64,000 bases of DNA from Cypionkella aquatica (GTDB taxonomy: Bacteria; Pseudomonadota; Alphaproteobacteria; Rhodobacterales; Rhodobacteraceae): positions 558,001-622,000 of the forward strand of contig NZ_BSPP01000004.1 of NCBI RefSeq assembly GCF_030161095.1, given 5' to 3'. Shown here piece by piece: positions 1,046-11,836 of this stretch. A model generated the notes under the pieces. It saw only the letters and a program-made list of their open reading frames with translations. It was not told the DNA's origin and ran no database searches. Every line of letters starts with the position of its first letter. The stretch's first letter is position 1. Position numbers and translations under genes: made by a program.

Positions 1046-1881
1046 GCCGAAAGAACAGATTGGCGGGTGGCATCGTCAACCTCTGGTCGCTGGCCAAACC
1101 AGCGTTCAAAGCCCGGAGCGGCCTGATGCAGCAACATCCCCAAGCCATCGACAATCGTGCAGCCTTTCGACTGTGCTTCAAGAAGGAATTGTGTTTTCAA
1201 GGGGTTATAGACGAGGTCAGTGACAAGCGCATTTCTGTCAAGACCATCAAGCGGCACGCGGAAATCAGATTTTCCGGACATACCAAGTGAGGTGGTGTTG
1301 ATAACGGTCGTCGCACCTTCCAACATATTAGGGGCCTGGATCCAATCGTAAACGCTGAGTTTGGCGCCCAAATCCGCCCGCAGCGCCTGCGCCCGAGGCT
1401 GGGTGCGGTTTGCAATACGGATTTCGGGCACGCCAACTTCGATCAGCGCGGCGACAACCGCCCGCGCCGCACCGCCAGCACCAAAAATCGCAGCAGGGCC
1501 TGCGGTTGGATCCCAATGCGGGGCATTCTGGCGCAGATTGGCGATGAAGCCCGCGCCATCAGTGTTGTCGGCATGAATCCGACCATCTTTGCGGAAAATC
1601 AACGTATTTGCCGCGCCAATCAACGCAGCGCGATCCGTCACCACATCGGCAATTTGCAAGACGGCCTCTTTGTGCGGGATCGTCACATTTACCCCGACAA
1701 AGCCAAGTTTCGGCAGCAACTCAAGCACTTGCCGCAAGTCTTGCGGGGCCACATCCATGGGTATGTAATGGCCTTGGATACCATAGCGCTTTAACCAGAA
1801 ACCATGCAGGGCGGGCGACCTGCTGTGCGCGATCGGATGGCCAATGACACCAGCAAGCGGGATGCGGGGGAGGTCGGTCAT
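1042..1881 (-). CDS. aroE: Shikimate dehydrogenase (NADP+)
   Basis: 279 residues. It reduces 3-dehydroshikimate to shikimate in aromatic amino acid synthesis. Seen: the substrate-binding motif with HSRSP near residues 19-23, the catalytic Lys in NVTIPHKE near residue 65, the NTDG motif near residue 105, and a dinucleotide-binding FGAGGAARA near residue 130. The start at 1881 overlaps the maf stop (ATGA), and the stop overlaps the coaE start, so maf-aroE-coaE-dnaQ forms a tightly coupled leftward operon. Length and motifs are ordinary for AroE rather than the YdiB or quinate dehydrogenase branch, though I cannot exclude side activities. Confidence 0.95.
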
Positions 1882-2477
1882 GTTGTGATGTAGCCTCTGG
1901 TTCCGAGATAGTCGATCAAGGGAAGAAGTGGCAGGCCCAGAATGGTGAAATAGTCGCCAGTGATAGCTGAGATCAGTTGGATGCCTTCCTCTTCTAACTT
2001 ATAACCGCCGACAGAATGACGCAGACTGTGCCAGTTTCTTGCAATATAGGCTTTCAGATAGGAGTCCGACAGACTGCGCATCGTCAAGCTGGCTTCAGAA
2101 ATATGGCGCCAGACCGGCTTTGCGTCGTCGTAAAGCACCAAAGCTGAAATCAACTGATGGCTTTGGCCGCGAAACTGGGTCAGTTGTTCAAAGGCAATCT
2201 CTGGCGTCTCGGGCTTGCCAAAGATGTGGCCCTGAAACGCCAGCACCTGATCGCAGCCCAGCACCAAATCGTGAGGGTTCTTTTCGGCCAGCTTACGCGC
2301 CTTCATCTCTGCCAACGCATCAGCAATATCGCGCGGTTTGGCCTGATCGGCCTGCAGCGACTGACGGATGCTGTCCTCATCAATCCGGGCCGGTTGTGCC
2401 GAAACCTCTAGCCCCGCATTGCGCAAAAGCTGCAAGCGGATGGTTGAAGCAGAAGCAAGAAGCAGCGGGCGTGTCAT
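1878..2477 (-). CDS. maf: Maf family nucleoside triphosphate pyrophosphatase
   Basis: 199 residues from the ATG at 2477. This start is preferred over an upstream ATG at 2528 because the family normally begins a few residues before the motif seen here at 7-21 ([15 protein letters not shown]). Maf proteins hydrolyse non-canonical or modified nucleoside triphosphates and were first linked to septum formation. The conserved GCDQVL segment with catalytic Asp is present mid-protein. It is the first gene of the leftward maf-aroE-coaE-dnaQ unit, and a perfect DnaA box lies 11 bp upstream of its start codon, at one edge of the candidate origin. Confidence 0.9.
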
Positions 2478-2487
2478 GGGCAGCCTT

Positions 2488-2496
2488 GTGGATAAG
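2488..2496 (-). promoter_or_regulatory. DnaA box, perfect consensus
   Basis: TGTGGATAA on the plus strand, i.e. TTATCCACA on the minus strand, the DnaA R-type consensus. It lies 11 bp upstream of the maf start codon. Confidence 0.7.
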
Positions 2497-2796
2497 CTGT
2501 GTTTGTTCCGGAATACGGATATGGGCATAAGTCCGTTTCAGCGCCGAAAAGGTGCCATGGAGCCGCTTTTGTCAAGCATTGAGGCAAGGACCAGCGGATT
2601 TGCCCACAGTGGGATAGTGAAAATCTGCGCATGTGAGCAGGTAAGATCTTCACAGGCTGTGGATGGATTTTGGGCAGTCAAAAATTCTGTAACATCTTGT
2701 TAGGATGAATATATTTAGAAAATCTGCAAGCGTATGGCCAAGTTGCAAACAGCCAACATCCTAGGGATAAGTTGCGGGAAAACGTCAGCTATTCTG

Positions 2797-2805
2797 TTAT
2801 CCACG
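2797..2805 (+). promoter_or_regulatory. DnaA box, one mismatch
   Basis: TTATCCACG on the plus strand, one base from the DnaA consensus, next to the second AT-rich tract in front of hemJ. It faces opposite to the box at 2488. Confidence 0.6.
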
Positions 2806-2861
2806 GCCCCTACAACATCATCTTTCTTTCTAGAATCTATTCTTTAAGAAGAAGAAAAGAA

Positions 2862-3323
2862 ATGAGGGATACTGTGGGCGATTTTCTAGCGAGCTATTAT
2901 CTTTGGATCAAAGCGTTGCATGTCATTGCAGTGATCGCTTGGATGGCCGGGCTGTTCTATCTGCCCAGGCTGTTTGTCTATCACGTTGAGCAGGTAGAAC
3001 GCGGCTCTGAGACTGACGCGATGTTTCAAACCATGGAGCGGCGTTTGCTGAAGGCAATCATCAACCCAGCCGGTGTGACGACTTGGGTGTTTGGTTTGGG
3101 GCTGGTGTTTACGCCGGGCATCGTGGACTGGACGGCACTTTGGCCTTGGACCAAGGCTGGCTCTGTGATTGCCATGACAGTGTTTCACCATTGGCTGGCA
3201 CTGCGGCGGAAGGATTTTCTCGCGGGGAGCAACAGGATCACCGGGCGGCAGTATCGGATGATGAATGAGGTTCCGACCTTGTTGATGATGATCATCGTGA
3301 TCTCGGTGATCGTGAAGTTCTGA
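2862..3323 (+). CDS. hemJ: Protoporphyrinogen IX oxidase, HemJ family
   Basis: 153 residues from ATG 2862. This start is chosen because the frame's earlier ATG at 2772 would add a polar, non-conserved leader across the putative origin, whereas MRDTVGDFL leads straight into the first membrane segment after an A/G-rich ribosome site. HemJ oxidises protoporphyrinogen IX to protoporphyrin IX in the inner membrane during haem synthesis. Seen: four hydrophobic segments and the conserved His at residue 20 followed by WMAGLFYLPRLF, and FHHWLA later. It is the first rightward gene beyond the candidate origin. Haem genes next to the origin are common in alphaproteobacteria. Confidence 0.9.
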   Translation: MRDTVGDFLASYYLWIKALHVIAVIAWMAGLFYLPRLFVYHVEQVERGSETDAMFQTMERRLLKAIINPAGVTTWVFGLGLVFTPGIVDWTALWPWTKAGSVIAMTVFHHWLALRRKDFLAGSNRITGRQYRMMNEVPTLLMMIIVISVIVKF

Positions 3324-6056: not shown

Positions 6057-7930
6057 GGTTGTTTCACGTGAAACATTTTGATGTAATTGTCGTTGGTGGT
6101 GGTCATGCGGGTGCGGAGGCAGCGGCTGCTTCGGCACGCATGGGTGCCAATACTGTTTTGATCTCTTTGCGGCGTGATGGCATTGGGGTGATGTCGTGCA
6201 ATCCGGCTATTGGTGGCCTGGGTAAGGGCCATCTGGTGCGCGAGATTGACGCGATGGATGGCATTATGGGCTTGGCGGCGGATCGGGCGGCGATTCAGTA
6301 CCGGTTGCTTAATCGCCGTAAGGGTCCGGCTGTGCAGGGTCCGCGGGCGCAGGCCGACCGCAAGCTGTACCGCGCGGCAATTATGGATTTGTTGCAAGCG
6401 CAGCAAAACCTGACCATCATGGAAGCGGAAGTCATTGCTATAAAAGAAGAAAACGGCATTGCCACAGGCGTTACCTTGGCTGATTCCACCGAACTGCACG
6501 CCTCGGCGGTGGTTCTGACGATGGGCACCTTTCTAAACGGCATCATGCATATTGGCAATCAACGCAGCCCAGGGGGGCGCGTCGGTGATCGACCATCGGT
6601 TAAGCTTGCAGAACAACTTGCGGGTTTGGGGCTGGCGCGGGGAAGGTTGAAGACCGGAACGCCACCACGTTTGGACGGGAATACGATCAATTGGGACCTG
6701 CTGGAGACGCAGCCCGGTGATGAAGAGCCGGTTGTTTTTTCCTTTCTGAATAAAGTGCCACAAGTGCGGCAAATTTCCTGTGGAATCACGCATACCAATG
6801 AGCGGACTCACGCCATTGTGCGAGACAATTTGAGCTTATCTGCGATGTATGGCGGCCACATTGAAGGCATCGGCCCGCGCTACTGCCCGTCGATTGAGGA
6901 CAAGATCGTTCGGTTTGCTGACAAAACTTCGCATCAGATTTTCCTGGAGCCTGAAGGCTTGGAAGATAGCACCGTGTATCCGAATGGCATTTCGACGTCT
7001 TTGCCTTATGACGTGCAGGAAGCATATGTGCGATCCATCGCCGGCCTAGAGAATGTAAATATAACTCAGCCTGGCTATGCGATCGAATATGACTATTTTG
7101 ACCCGCGTGAGCTGGATTTGTCTTTGCAGTTAAAGGCGTTACCGGGGGTGTTTCTGGCTGGGCAGATAAATGGCACAACTGGCTATGAAGAGGCAGCGGC
7201 ACAGGGTTTGCTTGCTGGCTTGAATGCGGCGGCGCTTTCCAAGGGTCGCGACTCGGTCAAGTTCAGTCGGTCTGACAGCTATATTGGCGTGATGGTTGAT
7301 GATCTTACCTCGCGTGGGGTGACGGAGCCCTATCGCATGTTTACCTCGCGTGCCGAGTATCGCCTTACATTGCGGGCCGATAATGCTGACCAGCGTTTAA
7401 CGCCGTTCGGCATTGAATTGGGCTGTGTGGGGACAGGGCGTGCTGATGCCTTTGTTGCCAAGCAGCAAGGCTTGACTGCAGCGGCGGTGCAGCTACAGCA
7501 GAGAACTTTTTCGCCTACAGAGCTGAGCAAGTTTGGGTTTGAGCTGAGCCAAGATGGCGCAAAGCGCACGGCATTGGCGCTGATGGCGTTTCCCGATGTG
7601 ACGATTGAGAAAATCATCGAACTGGTGCCTGAATTTGATGCTTTTGAACGCGATATACAGCAGCAGACAGCAACTGATGCACTGTATTCGCAGTACGCTG
7701 CGCGGCAAAAGCATGAAATTGCTGCGTTGAAGCGCGAGGAAGCAGCGGAAATTCCAAGCGAATTCATCTTCGCTGGTTTGCCGGGCCTTTCGACAGAGTT
7801 AGGCCTTAAGCTTGCGCGGATTCGACCGACAAACCTCGCACAAGCAGCGCGCATTGAAGGCATGACGCCAGCAGCACTGACTCTTATCCTTGCGCATATC
7901 CGTAAGGCGCGGCGCGAGGCAACGGCATAA
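6053..7930 (+). CDS. mnmG: tRNA uridine-5-carboxymethylaminomethyl modification enzyme MnmG (GidA)
   Basis: 625 residues if started at GTG 6053, which overlaps the mnmE stop. A second GTG at 6068, inside parS site 2, would give a protein five residues shorter beginning at Lys-His-Phe-Asp. MnmG is the FAD-dependent partner of MnmE in tRNA wobble uridine modification. Seen: the FAD motif GGGHAG at 15-20, the long [15 protein letters not shown] region, and [11 protein letters not shown] near residue 380. The stop shares bases with the rsmG start (TAATG). The parS palindrome encodes the N-terminal residues Leu-Phe-His-Val-Lys-His. Confidence 0.97.
6060..6075. other. parS site 2
   Basis: A perfect TGTTTCACGTGAAACA at the very start of mnmG, 3.2-3.6 kb right of the candidate oriC. 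It covers codons 3-8 of the long mnmG form and contains the alternative GTG start. Confidence 0.93.
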
Positions 7931-8556
7931 TGTGGCGCGAGAAAGCGGAAGTTCCGTCATGGCTGAGTGTTTCACGTGAAACATTGGAAAAACTTTTCAG
8001 CTATGGCGACTTGGTTGAGAAGTGGAATCCTGCAGTTAATCTAATTTCGAAGAGCGGTGTTCCAGATCTATGGAGCCGCCATATTCTGGATTCAGCCCAG
8101 ATCATGCTTCAAGCGCCCGACGCCGCCACGACTTGGTGTGACCTTGGCAGTGGCGGTGGATTTCCGGGTATTGTCTTGGCAATCCTTGCAAACGAGTTGC
8201 AGCCAAAATTGTCGATGACGATGGTGGAATCAGACCGCCGGAAGTCAGTGTTTCTGTCAGAGGCGCTGCGCCATCTTGGCATTACTGCAATTATAAAAAC
8301 GGAGCGTATTGAAGCACTTATGCCGCAGAACGCCGATGTCCTAACCGCACGAGCCTTGGCACCACTGCCGCAACTATGCAGCTACGCGCACAGACACCTT
8401 AGCCCGACCGGCGTCGCCCTGTTTCCAAAAGGCGCGGCAACCGCGCAAGAGATCACTGCTGCGCGCGCAGATTGGCAGTTTGACAGCAGTGAGATGCAAA
8501 GCCTGACCGAACATAATGCACGAATTGTCGCCATTCGGAATCTCCGCCATGCATGA
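7930..8556 (+). CDS. rsmG: 16S rRNA (guanine-527-N7)-methyltransferase RsmG (GidB)
   Basis: 208 residues. It methylates G527 of 16S rRNA using S-adenosylmethionine; loss of this gene is known to give low-level streptomycin resistance in other bacteria. Seen: the SAM-binding motif DLGSGGGFPG at 71-80, the NPAVNLIS segment before it, and the later AxALAPL motif. Translation starts on the A of the mnmG stop (TAATG). Residues 14-18 (Val-Ser-Arg-Glu-Thr) are encoded by parS site 3. The 3' end overlaps parA by 8 bases if parA starts at 8549. Confidence 0.96.
   Translation: MWREKAEVPSWLSVSRETLEKLFSYGDLVEKWNPAVNLISKSGVPDLWSRHILDSAQIMLQAPDAATTWCDLGSGGGFPGIVLAILANELQPKLSMTMVESDRRKSVFLSEALRHLGITAIIKTERIEALMPQNADVLTARALAPLPQLCSYAHRHLSPTGVALFPKGAATAQEITAARADWQFDSSEMQSLTEHNARIVAIRNLRHA
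7968..7983. other. parS site 3
   Basis: A perfect TGTTTCACGTGAAACA in the 5' part of rsmG, about 5 kb right of the candidate oriC and 1.4 kb before parB. Read in the same frame as in coaE (Val-Ser-Arg-Glu-Thr). Confidence 0.93.
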
Positions 8557-9376
8557 TATGATGGGCACCGGCGGGCCGCACATTCTTGCCATTGCGAACC
8601 AGAAAGGGGGCGTCGGCAAAACCACGACGGCGATCAACCTTGCAGCTGCCTTGGTCGAACTTGGTGCGCGCGTTTTGCTGGTTGATCTGGACCCGCAGGG
8701 AAATGCCTCGACCGGATTGGGGTTTTCCCCGACAGATCGCAAGAAAACCACCTACGATCTGCTTCTGGACGAAGTGCCGCTGGTAGAAGCTGCCGTCACA
8801 ACCGAATTTTCCGGTTTGTTTCTGTGCCCATCAAGCGCAGATCTGTCATCTGCCGATATCCAGCTTGTTTCTAACGAAAAGCGCAGCTTCCTGCTGCATG
8901 ATGCACTGAGAGAACCCCGTGTTGAAACTTTAGACTTAGATTTTATTCTGATTGACTGCCCGCCTTCTCTCAGCTTGCTGACGGTCAATGCAATGGTTGC
9001 CAGCCACGCCGTGCTCGTTCCGCTGCAAGCAGAGTTTTTTGCATTGGAGGGGCTGTCGCAACTGATGCTGACAATCCGTGAGGTGCGCCGCGGCGCGAAC
9101 CCGGGCCTGCGGATCGAGGGCGTCGTTTTGACTATGGTGGATGGGCGAAATCGGCTGTCGCAACAAGTTGAACATGATGCACGTTCGACCTTGGGGGATC
9201 TGGTGTTCAAAACGATGATCCCCCGCAATGTACGGCTCAGCGAGGCACCGTCATACGCTCAACCGGTGCTAAGTTACGATAGCGCGTCCAAAGGTTCCGA
9301 GGCATATCGGGCTTTGGCCATAGAAGTTCTGCTGCGCCATCCCCTTCGCAGCAGATTCAGTGAGGAGACGGTTTGA
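8549..9376 (+). CDS. parA: Chromosome partitioning ATPase ParA (Soj)
   Basis: 275 residues from ATG 8549. Other in-frame starts are 8516, 8558 and 8561; the first would overlap rsmG by 41 bases, so I prefer a start that overlaps only slightly. ParA is the DNA-bound Walker ATPase that pulls the ParB-parS complex, and so the origin, apart. Seen: the deviant Walker A KGGVGKTT at 19-26, DLDPQGNAS, and DCPPSLSLLT. The stop and the parB start share TGATG, the usual translationally coupled arrangement. Confidence 0.95.
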   Translation: MHDMMGTGGPHILAIANQKGGVGKTTTAINLAAALVELGARVLLVDLDPQGNASTGLGFSPTDRKKTTYDLLLDEVPLVEAAVTTEFSGLFLCPSSADLSSADIQLVSNEKRSFLLHDALREPRVETLDLDFILIDCPPSLSLLTVNAMVASHAVLVPLQAEFFALEGLSQLMLTIREVRRGANPGLRIEGVVLTMVDGRNRLSQQVEHDARSTLGDLVFKTMIPRNVRLSEAPSYAQPVLSYDSASKGSEAYRALAIEVLLRHPLRSRFSEETV

Positions 9377-10281
9377 TGGAAAAGAAATTTGATCGACGCG
9401 GCCTTGGGCGTGGCCTTTCTGCGCTTATGGCGGATGTTAACATCGATTCCGTCTCGGCTGCGCCAGAGCTTCGGGCATCTGAGTTACTGCTTCCAGTGGA
9501 AAAGATCGTACCCAACCCGGATCAACCAAGGCGTGATTTTGAGCCGCAGGCGTTGAACGATTTGGCGGCATCGCTGCGGCAAAAGGGTGTTATTCAGCCC
9601 TTGATCGTGCGGAAAAAGCCCGGTCAGGATCTCTATGAAATTGTGGCGGGTGAACGCCGTTGGCGTGCGGCGCAGATCGCGCAACTCCATGAATTGCCTG
9701 TGATTATTCGAGAGTTTACCGACTCAGAGGTTCTCGAAATCGCAATCATTGAAAACATTCAGCGCGCAGAGCTTAACGCGATTGAAGAGGCCTTGGCCTA
9801 TCGCCAATTGATGGACCGTTTCGGGCACACTCAAGAAAAGATTGCCGAAGCGCTGTCTCGTAGTCGCAGCCACATCGCCAACCTTTTGCGGCTGCTTGCT
9901 CTGCCTGGCGACGTTCAGCAAATGGTGCAATCCGGGACCCTATCTGCAGGGCATGCCCGCGCCCTGATTACCACTGGAAACGCGACAGAATTGGCGCTTA
10001 AGGTGATCGGCCGTGGATTATCGGTGCGCGAGACCGAAGATCTTGTGCGAAAGTCTGCCGTTGATCCGGCGAAGCGTCGCGCACTGGCCCGACGGGGTGA
10101 AAAAGACGCCGACACCCGCGCCCTTGAAGCCGATCTTGCTGCAAATTTGCATATGGGCGTACAGATTGATCACGTCCAAGGTGGGGAGGGTGGCAAGGTG
10201 ACCATCAGCTATCGCACTCTTGAACAACTCGATCTGCTGTGTCGCGTTCTCTCAACGATTCCCCGCGATGCCGAATTTTAG
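9376..10281 (+). CDS. parB: Chromosome partitioning protein ParB (Spo0J)
   Basis: 301 residues from ATG 9376 (a TTG three bases earlier is ignored). ParB binds parS, spreads along DNA as a CTP-dependent clamp and loads SMC. Seen: the RGLGRGLSALM N-terminus that contacts ParA, box I around 44-75 with PNPDQPRRDF, the CTPase motif GERRWRA at 92-98, an HTH near 150-175 for parS recognition, and a C-terminal dimerisation region. Four matching parS sites lie within 9 kb of it in this window. It ends 11 bp from the convergent hemW. Confidence 0.97.
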   Translation: MEKKFDRRGLGRGLSALMADVNIDSVSAAPELRASELLLPVEKIVPNPDQPRRDFEPQALNDLAASLRQKGVIQPLIVRKKPGQDLYEIVAGERRWRAAQIAQLHELPVIIREFTDSEVLEIAIIENIQRAELNAIEEALAYRQLMDRFGHTQEKIAEALSRSRSHIANLLRLLALPGDVQQMVQSGTLSAGHARALITTGNATELALKVIGRGLSVRETEDLVRKSAVDPAKRRALARRGEKDADTRALEADLAANLHMGVQIDHVQGGEGGKVTISYRTLEQLDLLCRVLSTIPRDAEF

Positions 10282-11453: not shown

Positions 11454-11836
11454 TAGCCTTTAAATGCAGTGACTTCGATTTCGACCTTCATCTCGGGTCT
11501 GATCAGGCCCGCGATCACCATCGTCGCTGCGGGTCTGATCTTGCCCAACGCGTCACCCAACACGGGCACCAGCGCCTCGACCAAATCCGACTGTGTCACT
11601 GTGTACTGCACGCGGACGATGTCGGCCATTTCAAACCCTGCTTCGACCAGAACTGCTTCTATTGTGGCGAAGCAGTTTCGCCCCTGATCGGCGATGTCAT
11701 CCGGCATTTTCATCGTAGCATAGTCATATCCTGTGACGCCTGACACAAAACACCATCCACCTTTCACGATGGCGCGGCTATAGCCCATTGTCTTTTCGAA
11801 CGGCGATCCGGTGGATATTTGTTTCACGTGAAACAT
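11453..11836 (-). CDS. RidA/YjgF family protein, lacking the canonical active-site arginine
   Basis: 127 residues of the Rid fold. RidA proper deaminates reactive enamine and imine intermediates using an Arg just before the C-terminal VEIE motif. Here the aligned position in AGLIRPEMKVEIE appears to be Leu 111, with an Arg two residues later, so the enzyme activity is uncertain and another Rid subgroup is likely. The ATG and first six codons (Met-Phe-His-Val-Lys-Gln) lie in parS site 4. It overlaps rdgB by 13 bases upstream and hemW by one base downstream, making rph-rdgB-rid-hemW one leftward unit. Confidence 0.85.
   Translation of the reverse strand: MFHVKQISTGSPFEKTMGYSRAIVKGGWCFVSGVTGYDYATMKMPDDIADQGRNCFATIEAVLVEAGFEMADIVRVQYTVTQSDLVEALVPVLGDALGKIRPAATMVIAGLIRPEMKVEIEVTAFKG
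11820..11835. other. parS site 4
   Basis: A perfect TGTTTCACGTGAAACA about 9 kb right of the candidate oriC. On the minus strand it contains the TGA stop of rdgB and all but the first base of the ATG start of the Rid gene. Confidence 0.93.

Follow-up and report, generated by a model that had tools for sequence, protein, structure and literature searches.

Gene content and features of the maf-hemJ region

The window analyzed here is the whole 64,000-nucleotide stretch of contig C4 (C4:558001-622000), part of a Cypionkella aquatica genome that comprises 4.04 Mb in 29 contigs and is 99.91% complete. Close to its left end, an intergenic gap separates maf from hemJ, and both genes begin at the edges of the gap and read away from it (maf on the minus strand from 2477, hemJ on the plus strand from 2862). 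This is the divergence of gene direction on which a preliminary description of this DNA had based part of its case for a replication origin. The names addA, addB, hslV, hslU, secB, mnmE, gidA, hemJ, hemE, ppsR, maf, rho, aroE, coaE, parA and parB were tested with profiles. The labels dnaQ, gidB, trxA, smr, mltA, tim44, fxsA, tsaE, amgK and lapPAS are presumptive, and were assigned by reading the translations. The features relevant to the origin are as follows.

845-860: parS, exact match to TGTTTCACGTGAAACA, within coaE
1878-2477, minus strand: maf (Pfam Maf), start at 2477
2478-2861: intergenic region of 384 bases, 45% G+C, proposed chromosomal oriC
2487-2495, minus strand: exact DnaA box TTATCCACA, maf-proximal (motif scan)
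2658-2666, minus strand: degenerate DnaA-box position CCATCCACA, two mismatches
2675-2749: central AT-rich tract, 26-34% G+C
2797-2805, plus strand: DnaA box TTATCCACG, one mismatch, hemJ-proximal (motif scan and alignment)
2806-2822, plus strand: five-base spacer GCCCC followed by TAC AAC ATC ATC (four WWC triplets), candidate trio-like element for single-strand DnaA binding
2823-2861: candidate unwinding element, an AT/pyrimidine-rich tract that runs from the array as far as hemJ (alignment and G+C profile)
2862-3323, plus strand: hemJ (Pfam UPF0093, NCBIfam HemJ), start at 2862
6060-6075: parS, exact match to TGTTTCACGTGAAACA, at the start of gidA
7968-7983: parS, exact match to TGTTTCACGTGAAACA, in the gene after gidA (presumably gidB)
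8516-9376, plus strand: parA (profile match)
9373-10281, plus strand: parB (profile match)
11820-11835: parS, exact match to TGTTTCACGTGAAACA (motif scan)

Two strongly AT-rich tracts were identified by G+C profile. The lowest part of the central tract (2675-2724) has 26% G+C, and the second tract, at approximately 2825-2874, has 30% (range 30-38%). Both had been described as lying between the DnaA boxes; this is correct for 2675-2724, and the second tract is in fact on the hemJ side of the hemJ-proximal box. When 400-base intervals across 688,710 bases of contig C4 were ranked by low G+C content, the one at the gap was 27th of 13,767. By composition, the tracts are candidates for the AT-rich unwinding element expected of an oriC. 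From the divergent gene starts alone, the same gap would also be predicted to carry the promoters of maf and hemJ.

The gap is flanked by parS sites, as had been reported, with one at 845 and three, at 6060, 7968 and 11820, on the other side within the window. A fifth occurs 16.7 kb left of the window (C4:541,274), and these five, which are all that the genome has, fall within 28.6 kb. No further site was found anywhere in the genome with up to two mismatches.

DnaA boxes and their conservation in relatives

The perfect box (2487-2495) and the one-mismatch box (2797-2805) lie at opposite ends of the gap, where the preliminary description had placed them. They are the only two good boxes in the window's own gap; the position at 2658-2666 is weak, and lies approximately where some relatives have a better box. 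Exact DnaA boxes are scarce, with only 13 in the 4.04 Mb genome, and the gap holds the top-scoring box pair in the 688,710-base part of contig C4 that was scanned. The whole window contains 8 matches with up to one mismatch, where 6.1 are expected. Such an unremarkable total is what we would anticipate if two boxes had simply fallen by chance into an AT-rich gap, an explanation that is refuted by conservation across 81 genomes and that we regard as having a negligible likelihood.

To assess this conservation we searched with HemJ, which gave at least 590 relatives, and kept the best 80; with the genome studied here they provide 81 gaps, and they are not independent of one another. In the relatives, the window proteins were aligned by tblastn to define the gap limits, so that a few coding bases may be included. 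In all 80 relatives, maf adjoins hemJ divergently across the gap. The 81 gaps contain 43 exact DnaA boxes, compared with a mean of 0.22 (maximum 1) in 50 dinucleotide shuffles, and 242 boxes with up to one mismatch, compared with a mean of 7.3 (maximum 15) in 50 shuffles, a 33-fold enrichment. By these counts, and by the pair ranking in contig C4, the gap has the beyond-chance cluster of DnaA boxes that is expected of an oriC. Boxes recur on the minus strand at the maf end (43 of the 242 near-exact boxes are minus-strand boxes in the first position bin), on both strands in mid-gap, and on both strands with an excess of plus towards hemJ. In an alignment of 25 of the 81 gaps, the boxes and the ends are kept and the middle barely aligns.

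Fourteen genomes were scanned over approximately 100-120 kb. Near-boxes in the gap outnumber those at every other 450-base place in 11 of them, and the gap is tied with another place in three (G003, G018 and G019). In G019, a second cluster of three DnaA-like boxes, located about 22.2 kb right of hemJ, equals the count in its origin gap.

Exact consensus sequences for CtrA or IHF were not found in the window's gap. TTAAN7TTAA and TTAACC, which we take to be the CtrA consensus, are both absent from it, and the gap thus lacks the CtrA sites of a Caulobacter-type origin. Across the 81 gaps these motifs occur 6 and 11 times, respectively, the latter against 16.9 expected. GANTC is not enriched in the gaps either (90 occurrences vs 121 expected).

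A triplet array in fixed register with the hemJ-side box

The best-kept block of the gap alignment consists of the hemJ-side box, about five G/C-rich bases, CTACAACATCATC, and a pyrimidine/AT-rich run that extends to hemJ. Triplets were counted in 80 of the 81 gaps, one gap being left out for want of a right-end box at up to two mismatches. At least three tandem WWC triplets are present in 45 of the 80 gaps vs 1.6% of shuffles, and in 41 of the 80 the longest array starts 5 bases past the box. A motif combining box and array, searched with up to two mismatches, was found in 16 of 292 genomes, including the one studied here, with exactly one copy in each; the reversed pattern, used as a control, matched one of the 292. 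In our genome, the copy is the one in the gap.

A looser pattern was also considered, namely the generic rule for a basal unwinding system (BUS) of at least three 3'-NAN-5' triplets within 16 bases of a box. The window has four such triplets, beginning 11 bases past the box. Across the 80 gaps the rule holds for 50%, compared with 55% of shuffles, and we dropped it as a signal because it performs no better than shuffled sequence. In these sequences, the real signal is the WWC array in fixed register, rather than the generic NAN rule; the array supplies the tandem triplets at a set distance from a box that characterize a BUS.

The orientation of the box relative to the trios, here and in the BUS, was compared on the arrangement that we take the BUS to have. 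As far as the available parts of the published accounts go (PMC8287927, PMC6669920), the hemJ end of the gap resembles the BUS and DnaA-trio of Bacillus subtilis and other bacteria in having a box, a short GC-rich spacer, tandem triplets and AT-rich DNA, and in its first box-proximal triplet, which on the other strand reads 3'-GAT-5'. It differs from the form in those same parts in the later triplets, which in the phase of the first read 3'-GTT-5' or 3'-GTA-5' and have a central T rather than A.

From this arrangement we infer a possible sequence of events. DnaA would load on the boxes of the gap, and a DnaA oligomer would extend from the hemJ-proximal box across the triplet array. The AT/pyrimidine-rich tract between the array and hemJ would then melt, and the helicase would be loaded there. 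ParB bound to the parS sites may move the new origins apart.

GC skew

A change in GC skew is a commonly used sign of an origin and is no requirement for origin function. As an origin locator it was tried on contig C4, first over 288,710 bases and later over 688,710. Over the longer stretch, the cumulative minimum is at C4:252,558, approximately 308 kb from the gap. No minimum and no change of skew sign mark the gap itself, and the profile is erratic within 140 kb of it. The preliminary description had named a distant skew minimum as an observation that would refute the origin and, taken formally, that is what was found. We judged the skew in this genome to be weak, erratic and uninformative; it gives the proposed oriC no support. 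At four-fold sites, plus-strand skew is positive from maf to tim44 (pooled 0.02-0.20); between hemJ and gidA it is higher and more consistent (pooled 0.14-0.27).

The remote minimum in contig C4 would suit a reading in which the gap is only a divergent promoter, with DnaA boxes that regulate maf and hemJ, and the origin is elsewhere on the chromosome. The divergent genes also fit this. We consider it highly improbable, in view of how many boxes the 81 genomes have and how these are conserved and arranged, the parS cluster, the synteny with known origins, and the lack of any better box pair in the stretch of contig C4 that was ranked.

KOPS polarity and its displaced switch

KOPS (GGGCAGGG), the motif that orients FtsK, occurs 314 times on one strand and 318 times on the other, vs 50 and 40 for the reversed pattern. 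In a comparison of the DNA on either side of the gap, it ranked first among the 8-mers present 25 or more times. At a large distance from the origin, KOPS polarity depends on the chromosome arm and not on the strand of the gene, both in our genome (51:7) and in QY30 (36:5 and 48:4), a relative with a closed chromosome. In QY30, the terminus switch falls at 1,753,532-1,754,741, and this interval includes a dif-like site at 1,754,363 (4 mismatches in 21 to the dif pattern used). No dif-like site was found in our own genome with up to 3 mismatches to that pattern. On contig C1, at approximately 50-60 kb, KOPS polarity changes from plus to minus, a terminus-like pattern.

In our genome, the best interval for the KOPS switch near the origin is C4:548,202-563,459, which contains the gap, and a split at C4:513,783-531,091 fits almost as well. 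For each of the other 17 genomes (18 in all), the best-fitting switch falls towards maf from the gap, at distances of about 3 kb to 50 kb or, in several, at the limit of the DNA examined or past it. The margin over a switch placed at the gap is a single site in G002, G003 and G018 and is larger in the remaining relatives. The QY30 switch lies 33-35 kb from hemJ, and all 23 sites there conform to it. We have withdrawn the KOPS switch as support for the exact position of the origin, given its displacement in QY30 and 16 further genomes.

Sites were also pooled by gene interval across the 18 genomes. From hemJ to parB there are 19 plus sites and no minus sites. From hslV to maf, with the gap included, the count is 29 plus and 0 minus, many of them shared by descent and so not 29 independent cases. 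Inserted DNA between secB and dnaQ has 5 plus and 0 minus, and these five sites were counted apart. From an ahcY marker to addA there are 17 plus and 34 minus; the marker is the longest open frame there, is possibly antisense to the real gene, and serves for position only. A further 157 sites, 102 of them plus and 55 minus, fell outside the gene interval that was mapped and were set aside. The addAB genes were omitted in four genomes that have them on the other side of the origin, and G016 was left out of one set of per-gene sums. Thus, right-arm polarity crosses the gap and continues to hslV, approximately 11 kb away, and is mixed only beyond. The place of the switch varies between genomes: given the 17 plus sites left of addA, it cannot be at one place in all of them.

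Two explanations for the displacement were rejected. A codon or gene-strand bias is at odds with a polarity that is independent of strand far from the origin, and with the 29:0 block, whose genes lie on both strands. Rearrangement accounts for part of the pattern in QY30, through a block inserted between secB and dnaQ, and is relevant to the Aliiroseovarius genomes, but does not account for the 29:0 block, which is syntenic.

Several structural differences were observed around this region. In the Aliiroseovarius genomes G007, G012, G015 and G016, addAB is on the other side of the origin and hslVU stayed in place. Because addAB moved and hslVU did not, the rearrangement broke at addA-hslV (C4:548.5-549.9 kb), which is the edge of the one-sided KOPS block. 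Only 1.7 kb separates secB from dnaQ in our genome, but the spacing is about 15 kb in two Defluviimonas genomes, 20 kb in AG16 and 23 kb in QY30, and this junction (C4 ~557 kb, just left of the window) is an insertion hotspot by the origin. Part of the QY30 insert matches right-arm DNA of our genome. In addition, window positions ~18000-64000 (C4 ~576-634 kb) are inverted relative to the gene order in G006, G010 and G019. The same inversion is seen relative to the matching parts of G015, G011 and QY30; the comparison did not extend to the closest relative, G002.

The KOPS data raise the question of whether the working origin is in the addA-hslU interval (C4 ~548.5-552 kb), approximately 9-12 kb left of the gap, or farther, with the maf-hemJ boxes forming a DnaA-binding regulatory locus (for titration or DnaA-controlled promoters). 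The pooled sites are one-sided through the gap (29/0, 5/0, 19/0) and mixed left of addA (17/34), as such an origin would predict, and KOPS otherwise behaves as a faithful marker, following the arm at a distance and switching at a dif-like site in the QY30 terminus. However, the addA-smr interval holds just 6 near-boxes in 78,668 bases from 14 genomes, about the chance level, and 4 of the 6 are in one 13.9-kb interval. This stretch consists almost entirely of open reading frame in QY30, and it is not the place of the Caulobacter origin in the available part of that report (PMC1914354). The 17 plus sites left of addA, which make the switch differ between genomes, also argue against a fixed origin there. 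We therefore rejected an origin at addA-hslV, where no DnaA-box cluster was found, and still place the origin at maf-hemJ; we consider the leftward alternative unlikely.

With the origin at maf-hemJ, one interpretation is that in Rhodobacteraceae the KOPS watershed, from which FtsK would be directed to pump DNA towards either arm, is uncoupled from oriC. It would be located towards maf, no nearer than addA-hslV, at least about 11 kb from the DnaA boxes. The genes from hslVU to maf, oriC and parAB would then form one right-arm block, and arm identity would be set by a feature other than replication. We hold this tentatively, as a reading that falls somewhat short of an even chance. The feature would be a boundary, of segregation or of a nucleoid domain, or else a second element for initiation; our preferred reading of the displaced switch is a segregation feature that is not tied to the start of replication. 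A single literature search, judged by titles and opening lines, showed no report of a displaced KOPS switch. If the displacement is real biology, it cautions against reading origins from strand asymmetry and provides a concrete, testable case in which the start of replication and the polarity of segregation are separate.

Position relative to known alphaproteobacterial origins

The gap occupies the origin position of a Caulobacter-type gene cluster, dnaQ-coaE-aroE-maf-(ppsR) / ori / (hemE)-hemJ-rho-mnmE-gidA-gidB-parAB, an order that was checked in 18 genomes; beyond hemE and COG1806, this is what we take the Caulobacter order to be. The preliminary description had cited a hemE/hemJ-rho-gidA-parAB neighborhood at other alphaproteobacterial origins. 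Here hemJ, rho, gidA and parAB are present as stated, and hemE is not at the locus: the best URO-D match of the genome is on contig C8. On contig C19, a URO-D family gene is in two pieces (6-359 and 63422-64132), as if a circular replicon had been cut inside the gene.

ppsR is absent from our genome. Among 196 genomes of the order it was identified in two (L248 and L249), in both next to maf-aroE, and was not found in the other 194, from which we conclude that ppsR has been widely lost in the order. In L249 the order is hemE, a gap of lower G+C content with two one-mismatch DnaA boxes, ppsR, maf and aroE. In L248, one exact and one one-mismatch DnaA box lie upstream of ppsR. The maf-hemJ gap is thus at the site of the classical origin, from which both flanking genes have been lost. 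The occurrence of hemE / ori / ppsR-maf and hemJ / ori / maf in one order shows how a conserved origin stayed as its flanks disappeared.

We conclude that the maf-hemJ gap is very probably the single chromosomal oriC, as originally proposed from the sequence. The proposal is borne out by the enrichment of DnaA boxes in 81 gaps, by the Caulobacter-type positional orthology seen through L249, and by a published statement on the family (PMC4793288). The origin of an unfinished genome in 29 contigs is thereby fixed to one gap, which is needed for analyses of copy number, marker frequency and arm symmetry.

In the available part of the primary report, the origin of Caulobacter and Rickettsia is the gap between hemE and COG1806 (ppsR) (PMC1914354). 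A marker-frequency profile of Hyphomonas neptunium has hemE marked, and parAB is about 7 kb from hemE, in the portion of that study available (PMC6650430). An oriC adjoining maf is described, per DoriC, as conserved in Rhodobacteraceae in the accessible text on Ketogulonicigenium vulgare Hbe602 (PMC4793288, 2016). Curated oriC predictions are given for 101 Rhodobacteraceae genomes, with eight more undecided, in the part available of a further paper (PMC6699656).

Set beside the available description of the Caulobacter crescentus origin, the gap has the same neighborhood, an orthologous position and DnaA boxes, and differs in that hemE and ppsR are gone from its flanks and an exact CtrA or IHF consensus is absent from the gap. 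Compared with the predicted Rhodobacteraceae oriC, it is in the same family and at the same intergenic place adjoining maf, with no essential difference from what the available text of that report describes (PMC4793288); that text names neither the gene on the other flank nor a triplet array. In this respect the finding is ordinary, as an oriC by maf was already published for the family. What goes further than is known is the WWC array at a fixed distance from its box and the displacement of the KOPS switch from the gap.
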